64,000 nt of DNA from NCBI RefSeq assembly GCF_028890485.2, contig NZ_JARCHV010000002.1, forward strand, positions 1,302,001 to 1,366,000. The letters run 5' to 3'. Each line of letters opens with the position of its first letter. Within the stretch, counting starts at the first letter, position 1. The notes beneath the pieces were generated by a model, which was given only the letters and a program-made list of their open reading frames with translations, was not told the DNA's origin and did no database searches. The DNA is from Planococcus sp. SK3692. GTDB taxonomy: Bacteria > Bacillota > Bacilli > Bacillales_A > Planococcaceae. Of the stretch, positions 23,500 through 62,686 are shown one piece after another. The position numbers and the translations under genes were made by a program.

Positions 23500-23530
23500 A
23501 GATTAACTTGTATAAAAAAATATCGATTCA

Positions 23531-23660
23531 TCTTCGGGGCAGGGTGCAATTCCCTACCGGCGGTAATTGGGCGTAATAGTCCATCAGCCCGCGAGCCGTA
23601 AAAGGCAGGATTTGGTGAAATTCCAAAGCCGACAGTATAGTCTGGATGGGAGAAGGTGAA
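23531..23660 (+). promoter_or_regulatory. FMN riboswitch (RFN element) ahead of ribU
   Basis: Conserved RFN blocks are visible in order: TCTTCGGGGCAGGGTG at the 5' arm, ATTCCCTACCGGCGGTAA, AGCCCGCGAGCC, and GATTTGGTGAAATTCC, then CCGACAGT and the closing GGATGGGAGAAGG. Binding of FMN should favour the terminator at 23717-23748 and shut off riboflavin uptake. Confidence 0.97.
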
Positions 23661-23716
23661 GGTACGGACGCATGCCGTTTTAATGGCGGACCGTTTATTT
23701 CAGTGTGCCTGACTCT

Positions 23717-59156: not shown

Positions 59157-60286
59157 AACGGGCCAAGCATATCATCGCGCGCTTAAAGGAAGCGGGTTTT
59201 GAAGCTTATATGGTTGGCGGCGCGGTACGCGATTATTTGCGTGGAGCCGTGCCTCATGATATCGATGTGGCGACTTCCGCTTCGCCCGAGCAGGTAAAAG
59301 CCCTTTTCGAACGAACGATCGACACAGGGATCGAACATGGAACCGTTATGATTCTCATAGATGGGGAAGGAACCGAAGTGACGACCTTCCGCACAGAAAG
59401 CGGTTATTCGGATAATAGAAGGCCGGATAAAGTAGAATTCGTCAATTCCTTGCACGAAGATTTAAAGCGACGCGATTTTACCATCAATGCGATGGCGATG
59501 ACCGAAGAAATGGACATTATCGATCCTTTCGGCGGCAGGGATGATTTAAGGGCAGGCATTATTCGGGCGGTCGGAGCTCCAAAAGAGCGATTCTCAGAAG
59601 ATGCTTTGCGCATGTTGAGGGCGATCCGATTTTCAGGCCAGCTGAATTTCAAAATCGATCCCGTGACGAAACAAGCCATCATCGAACATGCCAAAAGGAT
59701 ACAGTCTGTTGCTATGGAACGCATCAAAGCGGAATTGGACAAAGTCATGTTGTCCCATTCCGCGCACATCAGCATGTGGTATTTGACTGAAACAGGCCTG
59801 AACCGGTTTTTGCCCTCAGGCGGTTTATTCGAGATGGATTGGTCTGGATACAAAGCAGGCAAAGATGCACTGGCGGGTTGGTTTTATTTATTGCATTATA
59901 CCGGCGAGAGTTTTGCAGCGATCCAGGAATACCGTTTTTCCAATCAGGATAAAAAAGACCTTCAGCAGGCATTGGAAGCGAGCCAATTGCCGCTTTGGGA
60001 TGACTGGGCGTATTACAGCTTCACTGAACGCCAATTAATGATCGCGCAATCGGCGACGCATAAAACAGAAGCGGTGAAAGAGCGACAACAGGCGCTGCCG
60101 ATCCACTCGAAATCAGAGCTTGCGGCAAATGGACGCGATTTAATGGAGTGGACCGGAAAAAAAGCAGGACCATGGCTGAAAGAGTGGACTTTGCATATCG
60201 AAAAAGCAGTGGTCGAACGCCGCTTGGCCAATGATAAAGAACGGATAAAGGACTGGTTTAGAGATGAATATCACCGTCACACATGA
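59153..60286 (+). CDS. cca: CCA tRNA nucleotidyltransferase
   Basis: Adds or repairs the 3' CCA of tRNAs. It has 377 residues (B. subtilis 397). Head motif [10 protein letters not shown] (about 22-31) with DIDVATSA carrying the metal-binding Asp residues, [11 protein letters not shown] (about 112-122), and [20 protein letters not shown] (about 148-167). ATG overlaps the bshA stop; no separate ribosome site is needed. It overlaps birA by 23 bases. Confidence 0.95.
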
Positions 60287-61244
60287 ATTGGCGACACGGC
60301 TATTAGAAGCCGGGACGGAACCGGTATCCGGCCAGCAATTGGCGGACGAGTTCGGGGTTTCAAGAACGGCGATTTGGAAACATATGAAAGAACTTGAGGA
60401 AATGGGCTATGAGATCGAATCGGTGCGTAAAAAAGGCTATCGTATCCAAAAAAGTCCGGACAGCCTGGAAGCTTTTCTTATCCAAGCCAGTCTCAAGACG
60501 AAAAAAATCGGCAAACGGATTGAATATTTGGAGCAATGCGCGTCGACCCAAATCGTTGCGCATCAGTTGGCGCAAGAAGGCGCACCTGATGGAACAGTAG
60601 TCATTGCGGAGCTTCAAACAGAAGGCAGAGGCCGCTTGATGAGAAAATGGGATTCGGCAAAAGGCCAAGGAATCTGGATGAGCATCATCTTACGTCCGGA
60701 CGTCCCACCTCATAAAGCCCCCCAGTTCACATTGGTTGCTGCAGTGGCAATTGTCAGGGCGATTCAATCGGTGACGGGTTTACAAGCATCGATCAAATGG
60801 CCGAACGATATCTTGTTTGGCGCAAAAAAAGCCACGGGTATCCTAACAGAGCTGCAATCGGATGCTGACGGTATCCAAGCTTTAATCATCGGCATCGGTG
60901 TCAACGTCAATCAAGAGCGGAATGATTTCGACCCTGCTGTTCAGGATATTGCCACTTCCTTACGCCTTGAGTCCGGCCAGCCGGTCAACCGCAGAGAGTT
61001 GGTGCAGGAAATCCTGCACTGTCTTGAGATCTATACAGAGCTATATATTGAAAAAGGGTTTGCTCCGTTAAAATTATTATGGGAAGGTCATTCTGCGACA
61101 ATCGGCAAAGCTGTCCGCGCACGCATGTCGCGTGAAACTTTAGAAGGTGTGGCAGAAGGCATTACTGAAGACGGCGTTTTGCAGCTGCGTACGGCTGACG
61201 GCCAGCTTCACGGCATTTATTCTGCAGATATTGAGCTGAAGTAA
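60264..61244 (+). CDS. birA: Bifunctional biotin-protein ligase / biotin operon repressor
   Basis: Attaches biotin to carboxylases and represses biotin genes. It has 326 residues (B. subtilis 325): N-terminal helix-turn-helix (about 8-65: SGQQLADEFGVSRTAIWKHMKEL), so the repressor class; the catalytic domain has STQ, the biotinyl-AMP loop GRGRLMRKWDSAKGQGIWMS (about 114-133), and KWPNDI, and an SH3-like C-terminal part. Starts inside cca. panB, which follows in B. subtilis, is absent. Confidence 0.95.
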   Translation: MNITVTHELATRLLEAGTEPVSGQQLADEFGVSRTAIWKHMKELEEMGYEIESVRKKGYRIQKSPDSLEAFLIQASLKTKKIGKRIEYLEQCASTQIVAHQLAQEGAPDGTVVIAELQTEGRGRLMRKWDSAKGQGIWMSIILRPDVPPHKAPQFTLVAAVAIVRAIQSVTGLQASIKWPNDILFGAKKATGILTELQSDADGIQALIIGIGVNVNQERNDFDPAVQDIATSLRLESGQPVNRRELVQEILHCLEIYTELYIEKGFAPLKLLWEGHSATIGKAVRARMSRETLEGVAEGITEDGVLQLRTADGQLHGIYSADIELK

Positions 61245-61250
61245 AGGATA

Positions 61251-61279
61251 TAGGCATTTTCTAGAAATTCTGCTATAGT
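61251..61279 (+). promoter_or_regulatory. Promoter of panC-panD
   Basis: TAGGCA (61251-61256), 17 bases, TATAGT (61274-61279), with TGc ahead of the -10 (extended). It implies a leader of about 175 bases before panC. Confidence 0.6.
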
Positions 61280-61285
61280 GAAAAT

Positions 61286-61431
61286 ACGGGCAGTATCCGA
61301 TGTGAACTGCACCGTGGCACGTAACAGCAAACAATAAATGAATATGATTCTGCCTTGATCATTACGTGACAGGGACGGAGGAAACCGAATTGGAATTTTC
61401 TGTCCTTCTGTCTTCTGACAGAAGGATTTTT
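61286..61431 (+). promoter_or_regulatory. panC leader RNA, candidate pan-motif attenuator
   Basis: Between the promoter and panC lies a leader with a long-range pair CACGTAA/TTACGTG (about 61318-61324 with 61364-61370), then GACGGAGGAAACCG, then a rho-independent terminator. A leader of this kind upstream of pantothenate genes recalls the 'pan' RNA motif described in Bacillota. The family match is inference and was not computed. Confidence 0.5.
61403..61431 (+). terminator. Leader terminator ahead of panC
   Basis: TCCTTCTGTC, TTCT loop, GACAGAAGGA, then TTTTT, ending 31 bases before the panC ATG. It is placed to attenuate panCD rather than to end birA alone. Confidence 0.85.
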
Positions 61432-61462
61432 ATATGGTTTTCTCTTAAAAGGAGAGGGAAAT

Positions 61463-62299
61463 ATGCAAGTTTTAGACACAGTGAAGGACTTGAGAAACTG
61501 GGTCCTGAGCACAAAAGAAAGCGGACAGTCGATTGGGTTGGTGCCGACGATGGGTTTTTTGCACGACGGGCACTTAGCACTTGTTGAATCCGCGAAATCG
61601 GAAAACGATCTGGTGGTCATGAGCATCTTCGTTAATCCGGCACAATTCGGCCCGAATGAGGATTTTGACCGTTATCCACGCGATTTTGACCGCGACCGCC
61701 TGCTCGCTCAACAAGCCGGCGTCGACATAATCTTCGCTCCATCTGTTGAAGAGATGTACCCGCGTAATTCGCAAATCACAATGGGAGCTGGAACGCTTGC
61801 GGATGTCTTATGCGGAAAAAGCCGTCCGGGACATTTTGATGGCGTGCTGAAAGTGGTGACGAAATTATTCCACCTCGTTCAACCCAACATAGCTTATTTC
61901 GGGCAGAAAGATGCACAGCAGCTGGCGATCATTGAATCGCTCGTGCGGGATTTCGATTTCCCGTTGCACATCCGCCGCATCGAAACGATCCGTGAACCGG
62001 ATGGGCTTGCCAAAAGCTCGCGCAATGTCTATTTAAGTGAAACGGAGCGAGCTGAAGCACCGAAACTTTATCAAGCCTTGCAACAGGGAGTCGCGGCCGC
62101 TCGCGACGGAAAAGATCCGATACCGGAGATGACCCGGTTCATCGAGTCGGAAACATCCGGCAAAATCGATTACATCAAATTGCTGTCTTATCCGGACTTA
62201 ACCGATTCACCGAACGGACAGGCAATACTTGCGCTCGCAGTCCAATTCCAAAAAGCGCGGCTCATCGACAATATCATTTTCAATTCAAAGGAGAACTGA
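61463..62299 (+). CDS. panC: Pantothenate synthetase
   Basis: Joins pantoate and beta-alanine using ATP. It has 278 residues. ATP motif TMGFLHDGHLAL (about 30-41), FVNPAQFGPNEDFDRYPR (about 54-71), the KDAQQLAIIESLVRDF region near 151-166 and the SSRNVYLS block. AAAGGAGAGGG precedes the ATG. panB, which makes ketopantoate and heads this operon in B. subtilis, is missing, so pantoate must come from elsewhere. panD follows after three bases. Confidence 0.96.
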   Translation: MQVLDTVKDLRNWVLSTKESGQSIGLVPTMGFLHDGHLALVESAKSENDLVVMSIFVNPAQFGPNEDFDRYPRDFDRDRLLAQQAGVDIIFAPSVEEMYPRNSQITMGAGTLADVLCGKSRPGHFDGVLKVVTKLFHLVQPNIAYFGQKDAQQLAIIESLVRDFDFPLHIRRIETIREPDGLAKSSRNVYLSETERAEAPKLYQALQQGVAAARDGKDPIPEMTRFIESETSGKIDYIKLLSYPDLTDSPNGQAILALAVQFQKARLIDNIIFNSKEN

Positions 62300-62302
62300 C
62301 CT

Positions 62303-62686
62303 ATGCTTAGAATGATGCTCAATTCCAAAATTCACCGTGCGACGGTAACTGAAGCCGATTTGAATTATGTCGGCAGCATTACAATCGACCAGGATTTATT
62401 GGATGCAGTCGGCATGCTGTCGAATGAGAAAGTCCATATCGTTAATAATAATAACGGCGCCCGTTTCGAAACGTATATCATCGCCGGCGAACGCGGCAGC
62501 GGCGTTATTTGTGTCAACGGCGCAGCAGCGCGCCTCGTACAACGCGGAGACATCGTCATCATCTTGTCTTACGGCTACGTCATGGACAAAGATGCGCGCA
62601 ACCATAAGCCGACTGTGGCGATCATGGACGCGGACAACTCCATCAAAGAAATCATCCACTACGAACCGGAAGCGACGGTCATGTAG
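62303..62686 (+). CDS. panD: Aspartate 1-decarboxylase
   Basis: Makes beta-alanine for pantothenate; a pyruvoyl enzyme formed by self-cleavage. It has 127 residues, same as B. subtilis. The cleavage site G24-S25 (NYVGSITID) is intact, and the conserved [21 protein letters not shown] block (about 58-78) forms the active-site wall. AAAGGAGAACTG lies ahead. It ends the panCD operon. Confidence 0.96.

Follow-up and report, generated by a model that had tools for sequence, protein, structure and literature searches.

A pan RNA occupies the intergenic region between birA and panC in this Planococcus genome, and, as predicted here, it is probably a transcription attenuator that places panC-panD under end-product feedback. 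The RNA is conserved, is followed by a terminator, and in computed folds its second hairpin and an antiterminator exclude each other. All 46 genomes examined from the genus contain two copies, and elsewhere in the phylum pan RNAs also stand before uptake and kinase genes. Positions refer to the window, which is the whole 64-kb stretch of DNA that was analysed.

Identification of the pan RNA

The Rfam covariance model of the pan motif (RF01749) matches the panC leader over its full length (model positions 1-92 of 92) with a score of 64.5 bits (cut-off 36.2, E-value 3.3e-11 in a 401-base stretch). The original prediction proposed a pan RNA candidate at this place, and the match lies far above the curated cut-off. 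RF01749 is the sole Rfam family over its gathering score in the leader; RsaF, L10_leader, preQ1-II, MIR5998 and RAGATH-12 scored under their gathering cut-offs there and were rejected. The other hit of the window is an FMN riboswitch (23526-23661, 122.1 bits).

Pan RNAs have been described as tandem hairpins with two bulged A's, for which a dimeric protein was suspected, located before panB, panC or aspartate decarboxylase operons (Weinberg 2010, PMC2864571). The high-scoring leader RNA, with its bulged-A tandem hairpins upstream of panC-panD, shows no structural difference from this motif; what differs is that in the Planococcus genome another copy stands ahead of a separately located panB. 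The placement at panC, which the original prediction considered informative, is real at this locus but not new, having been in print since Weinberg 2010 (PMC2864571). In the open-access literature searched, that paper is the sole discussion of the pan RNA, and a few transcriptome papers list it. Pan RNAs are listed in PMC4342826, PMC4634765 and PMC5670726, in the first and last of these before panB. The main text of PMC3766115 contains none of the terms pan, pantothenate, panB and RF01749. The control genome, B. subtilis, carries a pan RNA.

Structure parsing covered 256 pan RNAs, of which 92 belong to the genus, 30 to the rest of the family and 134 to genomes outside the family. Within the genus, 46/46 panC and 46/46 panB leaders have both hairpins and all four bulged A's. 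The counts of bulged A's outside the family are 131/134 and 133/134 for hairpin 1 and 114/134 and 134/134 for hairpin 2; the parser preferred A at two of these positions, the 3' bulge in hairpin 1 and the 5' bulge in hairpin 2. All ten pairs of hairpin 1 show several pair types outside the family. The genus stems hardly vary, so that pairing within the genus is conserved rather than demonstrated by covariation. Across the 46 genomes the hairpins are about 95% identical in the panC copies and 93-95% in the panB copies, and the linkers 37-39% (gap-free comparison). Linker length across loci ranges from 4 to 75 nt.

Table 1. Predicted features of the panC leader and its flanking genes (window positions)
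Feature	Position	Strand	Basis
birA-type biotin protein ligase, upstream neighbour	60264-61244	+	
Promoter TAGGCA (61251-61256), 17-nt spacer, extended -10 TATAGT (61274-61279)	61251-61279	+	promoter scan; TG ahead of second hexamer
Pan RNA (RF01749), full length	61287-61382	+	covariance model
Hairpin 1, 10 pairs, one bulged A per strand	61287-61314	+	
Linker, A+U-rich, length and sequence differ between relatives	61315-61349	+	
Hairpin 2, 11 pairs, one bulged A per strand; 3' arm 61367-61378	61350-61378	+	
Antiterminator strand A: hairpin 2 3' arm, tail AGGA (61379-61382) and 2 bases	61367-61384	+	predicted
Long-range pairing, tail-side strand; partner 61436-61445 across terminator	61377-61386	+	pairing test; fold in part
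Antiterminator strand B, takes in terminator 5' arm; predicted duplex with strand A -17.8 kcal/mol	61398-61414	+	
Intrinsic terminator: stem-loop 61402-61427 (11 pairs) and T-rich tract	61402-61432	+	
Long-range pairing, distal strand	61436-61445	+	pairing test
panC ribosome-binding site AGGAGAGG	61450-61457	+	sequence
panC, pantoate-beta-alanine ligase; ATG at 61463	61463-62299	+	PF02569, 344 bits
panD, aspartate decarboxylase, 3' of panC	62303-62686	+	PF02261, 175 bits

Architecture of the panC leader

The individual elements named in the original prediction were all recovered (Table 1). The promoter ahead of the leader is an extended -10 site whose -10 element is kept across the genus: a -10-like hexamer (at least 5/6) lies no more than 18 nt from hairpin 1 in 44/46 panC leaders (controls 9/230) and in 46/46 panB leaders (controls 12/230). 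Between 61150 and 61480 the promoter scan returned two promoter-like sites (0.6 expected), and the terminator scan found one terminator at the leader (0.2 expected). About 31 bases separate the end of the terminator T run from the panC ATG, as proposed. The segment GACGGAGGAAACCG, which had been pointed out, is located at 61374-61387 and consists of the end of the hairpin 2 3' arm, the tail and the next bases. The claimed long-range pairing was traced to the tail-side and distal strands listed in Table 1, and the fold of 61285-61442 is better than that of 200/200 shuffles (z = -4.65). Within the stretches examined, birA is found upstream in 45/46 panC loci of the genus and in 25/30 loci of other genera.

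Two pan RNAs in each of 46 genomes of the genus

The second pan RNA of the Planococcus genome (52.7 bits) is found on another contig (C6), before panB. Exactly two pan matches are present in 46/46 genomes of the genus, and the resulting 92 loci divide evenly into 46 that lead to panB and 46 that lead to panC-panD. A search of the whole family detected pan matches in 240/250 genomes, two in each of the 46 genus genomes and one in each of the other 194. In other genera, all 30 loci read (the best-scoring of the family search) lead to panB followed by panC. In this genus panB has left the operon, and both halves carry their own pan RNA. The presence of a pan RNA before each half means that the regulon was split, not that the motif shifted from panB to panC. 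The original prediction described the leader as standing ahead of panC rather than panB; the genome also has a pan RNA before the relocated panB.

A horizontal origin of the separate panB was rejected: the PanB proteins of the genus form one clade inside the family (support 100/99) in a tree that includes 12 of the 46 genus copies and whose bootstrap had yet to settle completely. Nor is there support for one conserved new location of panB, since the panB neighbours of this genome are found near panB in only 13, 14 and 4 of the 46 loci.

A different pattern is seen in a distant family (f10). The PanB proteins of five loci (L155, L157, L167, L168, L243) group with those of a class Bacilli family (f7; support 100/99) and have their own pan RNA, which suggests transfer of a pan-panB unit. 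Three f10 genomes have a second pan RNA (L264, L274, L302), located before DUF2520-panC.

Terminator and antiterminator

A promoter, a terminator before the gene and an alternative antiterminator pairing are all predicted at the panC leader. The attenuation layout of the original prediction is supported by relatives, where the terminator is kept and its 5' arm is complementary to the 3' arm of hairpin 2. A terminator lies between the pan RNA and the gene in 90/92 loci of the genus, in 30/30 loci of other genera in the family and in 95/108 loci outside the family; with one shuffle per locus, the corresponding control counts are 13, 2 and 23.

The predicted duplex between the hairpin 2 3' arm with its tail and the terminator 5' arm has a mean of -15.0 kcal/mol in the genus (n=90) versus -6.2 for unrelated terminators, which were taken from elsewhere in the same loci. 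The corresponding means are -14.5 versus -5.9 kcal/mol in the family (n=30) and -10.3 versus -7.5 kcal/mol outside it (n=95). Values of -10 kcal/mol or better are reached in 100, 100 and 58% of the loci (genus, family, outside), compared with 7, 5 and 20% of the controls. When arms were permuted between loci, the means were -15.3, -14.2 and -9.2 kcal/mol, respectively. Own pairs in the genus are no better than permuted ones, so the antiterminator there reflects conservation and not covariation; locus-specific matching of the arms is visible only outside the family.

In predicted folds of transcripts cut at the terminator loop, the antiterminator replaces hairpin 2 in 90/90 genus and 29/30 family loci, and full leaders retain hairpin 2 in 88/90 and 30/30. 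Outside the family the switch in cut transcripts occurs in only 37/95 loci. A control with shuffled downstream sequence is permissive, giving antiterminator-like pairing in 231/450 (genus), 29/150 (family) and 85/475 (outside) cases.

The leader would then probably work as follows. During transcription, hairpin 2 would form in the nascent leader. An effector, or a protein loaded with it, would hold the pan hairpins, and hairpin 2 would thus retain its 3' arm, so that the terminator folds and transcription ends before panC. With effector scarce, the growing 5' arm of the terminator would invade hairpin 2 via the tail AGGA, and the resulting antiterminator would allow panC-panD to be transcribed. 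We infer that the effector-bound state is the off state and that the tail is where strand invasion begins to drive the switch. In the Rfam pan model, the conserved tail is best read as the landing site for the terminator arm. In the clade with PanT-like genes (described below) the tail sits at the ribosome-binding site, and a loose pattern finds a purine-rich site in 23/24 loci in which an ECF S component comes first. The terminator and the ribosome-binding-site arrangements both fit a bound state that is off.

The T-box and PyrR-type attenuators of Bacillota are leaders in which terminator and antiterminator are mutually exclusive. The panC leader shares this arrangement but is without a specifier or a PyrR-type site (RF01749 is its sole Rfam family).

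The tail can also pair with a strand beyond the terminator. At -8 kcal/mol or better, this third pairing is found in 45/46 panC leaders (shuffles 155/460), in 46/46 panB leaders (239/460) and in 22/25 family loci (81/250), counting only loci with enough room. It is also present in 11/11 further loci (six from Bacilli, five from f10; shuffles 71/110), and other phylum loci show no signal (34/75 versus 290/750 shuffles). The pairing around the terminator is kept across Bacilli, and the attenuation scheme offers it no clear role. As read from the sequence, the CTCT within 61436-61445 could alternatively pair with the panC ribosome-binding site.

Genes behind pan RNAs across the phylum

In a phylum sample, pan matches were detected in 152/398 genomes; searches of more than 40 genomes used stricter filters and lost weak matches. 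Outside the family, 108 loci were analysed, 29 as returned by the phylum search and 79 chosen among the matches listed. In 90 of them the pan RNA leads to panB, panC or panD and in 18 it does not, a proportion that says nothing of prevalence as the 79 loci were hand-chosen with second copies first.

Thirteen of the 18 loci are operons with ECF S components, BioY, birA or CoaX, including L317, whose S component and CoaX came into view only with a longer stretch (L363), and L269, for which only CoaX was seen, on the same contig. Three contain an OPT transporter and a type II kinase, one contains DUF997 and PanF, and one is without assignment. Pfam assigns BioY, ECF_trnsprt, Pan_kinase, OPT, DUF997, SSF and Fumble behind pan RNAs. 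The PanF piece, which ends at a contig end, scores 275 bits with TIGR02119, below the cut-off of 328. The type II pantothenate kinase matches structure 4nb4 (2.1e-15). S components match 4rfs_S (1.3e-4 and 4.6e-8) and 6zg3_C (5.7e-5), both of which we take to be PanT complexes; a third S component has a structure match of only 0.094. The remaining loci were assigned by tblastn to identified proteins. Another 26 new loci came from two additional order searches; ECF S components are present in 19 of them, OPT in 2 and pan genes in 3, and 2 are without assignment.

In the 18 genomes with these loci, profile searches found PanC missing in 10 and PanB in 6. Six of the 18 (G611, G475, G595, G552, G560, G283) have no match to PanB, PanC or PanD in profile searches of drafts, which leaves room for replacements or imported pantoate.

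The location of pan RNAs before PanT-like ECF components, PanF, OPT transporters and type II/III pantothenate kinases is new here. The wider regulon of uptake and kinase genes was not found in print in the open-access literature searched; the description of the motif in Weinberg 2010 (PMC2864571) is limited to operons of panB, panC and aspartate decarboxylase, to which these genes are additional.

Several loci have further peculiarities. An OPT-family transporter is directly behind the pan RNA in L261, L282, L283, L353 and L354, followed by a type II pantothenate kinase in 3/5, and may serve to import pantothenate or one of its derivatives. PanT-like genes directly behind the pan RNA in L292, L295, L296, L314, L329 and L338 have no in-frame ATG, GTG or TTG near the ribosome-binding site in the 60 bases that follow the RNA; comparison with aligned relatives suggests that they may start at AUA or AUU about 8 nt past GGGAGG. 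In L269 and L317, an amidohydrolase-family protein with a twin-arginine-like N-terminus lies between the pan RNA and birA and, speculatively, could release pantothenate from a derivative. In 55/134 loci outside the family, the gene that comes first after the pan RNA, ahead of panB/panC, encodes a DUF2520/Rossmann protein (PF10728, PF10727), perhaps a PanG-type ketopantoate reductase. A conserved protein without a Pfam match (L367:999-1754 and relatives) follows the PanT-like gene in 14 loci.

Candidate sensors

Hairpins 1 and 2 share one plan, with two bulged A's each and a variable linker. This favours a putative dimeric protein that would respond to the CoA pathway, bind both hairpins and control the terminator, a reading we are about equally inclined to accept and to doubt. 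Autoregulation by the biosynthetic enzymes is not general: the six pan-bearing genomes without PanB, PanC and PanD exclude these proteins as general RNA binders.

The A-bulged hairpins might instead bind CoA, pantothenate or 4'-phosphopantothenate directly, which we regard as a tentative possibility; if true, the pan RNA would be the missing CoA riboswitch. The end-product logic of a regulon with uptake, synthesis and kinase genes is consistent with this. A 2022 review states that no CoA riboswitch is known and that one may hide among the orphans (PMC9971707). However, two simple hairpins with a linker of such variable length are unlike most metabolite aptamers, and a dimeric protein was preferred by Weinberg 2010 (PMC2864571).

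As a special case of the dimeric protein, CoaX (type III pantothenate kinase) could be the RNA-binding feedback sensor, which appears improbable. CoaX is present in 19/19 pan-bearing genomes examined. In the phylum sample it is found in 148/152 pan-bearing versus 210/246 pan-less genomes (Fisher p 5e-5, not corrected for relatedness). In 9 of the 18 genomes with loci that lack panB, panC and panD it follows a pan RNA on the same strand at a distance of 0.6-3.1 kb, and by eye at 3.8-8.4 kb in 12 more genomes. Genus g9 has a pan match in 0/8 genomes and CoaX in 0/8, although PanC is retained in 6/8 and PanD in 4/8. A diverged pan RNA in this genus was rejected: six upstream stretches (L145-L148, L150, L151) are without the hairpin 2 pattern by pattern search and reading.

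Against this, CoaX occurs in 358/398 sampled genomes, so that its presence says little and CoaX as the sole explanation is weakened. Four pan-bearing genomes (G266, G345, G411, G508), with stated completeness of 82, 97, 99 and 63%, have no CoaX match; these may be gaps, although G345 and G411 are nearly complete by these figures. Genus g9 is one lineage. Type II and III pantothenate kinases are reported to be without CoA feedback (PMC12570885). A simpler reading is that genomes using these kinases need feedback on expression, and joint loss of CoaX and pan RNA may then mean only that feedback moved. The link between CoaX and the pan RNA is thus only suggestive.

The signal

Pan RNAs before uptake and kinase genes, together with the six genomes without PanB, PanC and PanD, argue against pantoate as a general signal. 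We infer a signal at or beyond pantothenate in the CoA pathway, with a compound formed downstream of pantothenate kinase as the likelier choice: kinases are found in the same operons, so that a post-kinase product is the more economical assumption, as for other cofactor switches. In the FMN and TPP riboswitch regulons one leader class precedes the synthesis, uptake and kinase genes of one cofactor and acts by attenuation or at the ribosome-binding site, depending on the clade. The pan RNA likewise spans synthesis, uptake and kinase genes with a control mode that differs by clade; it differs in consisting of two simple hairpins, with candidates only for ligand and sensor.

That a precursor (pantoate, ketopantoate or beta-alanine) is the signal is very unlikely. 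It would suit the majority of pan RNAs, which stand before panB, panC or panD (90/108 outside the family), but not those that precede uptake and kinase genes where the genome gave no PanB, PanC or PanD match. Pantoate, one of the ligands suggested in the original prediction, is thereby disfavoured by the phylum survey. Least credible of all is a terminator with constant read-through at which both hairpins are idle, given hairpins far better conserved than their linkers at both panC and panB and a terminator arm matched to hairpin 2.

Implications

Since 2010 the pan RNA has counted as an orphan, and the absence of a known CoA riboswitch was called puzzling by a 2022 review (PMC9971707). It is conceivable, and is put forward with reserve, that in the pan RNA Bacillota have their long-missing feedback RNA for coenzyme A. 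It would gauge CoA or a near precursor, directly or via a dimeric protein such as CoaX, and control pantothenate synthesis, uptake and phosphorylation; most clades would use termination for this, and one or more the ribosome-binding site. The pan RNA is a concrete candidate for RNA-based CoA sensing, direct or protein-assisted. The phylum survey directs the search for the signal to pantothenate or beyond and names candidate genes. The genus provides a natural test: panB and panC-panD have been split apart, each with a pan RNA in 46/46 genomes, and since both separated parts keep it, a signal common to both branches would be the one acted on.
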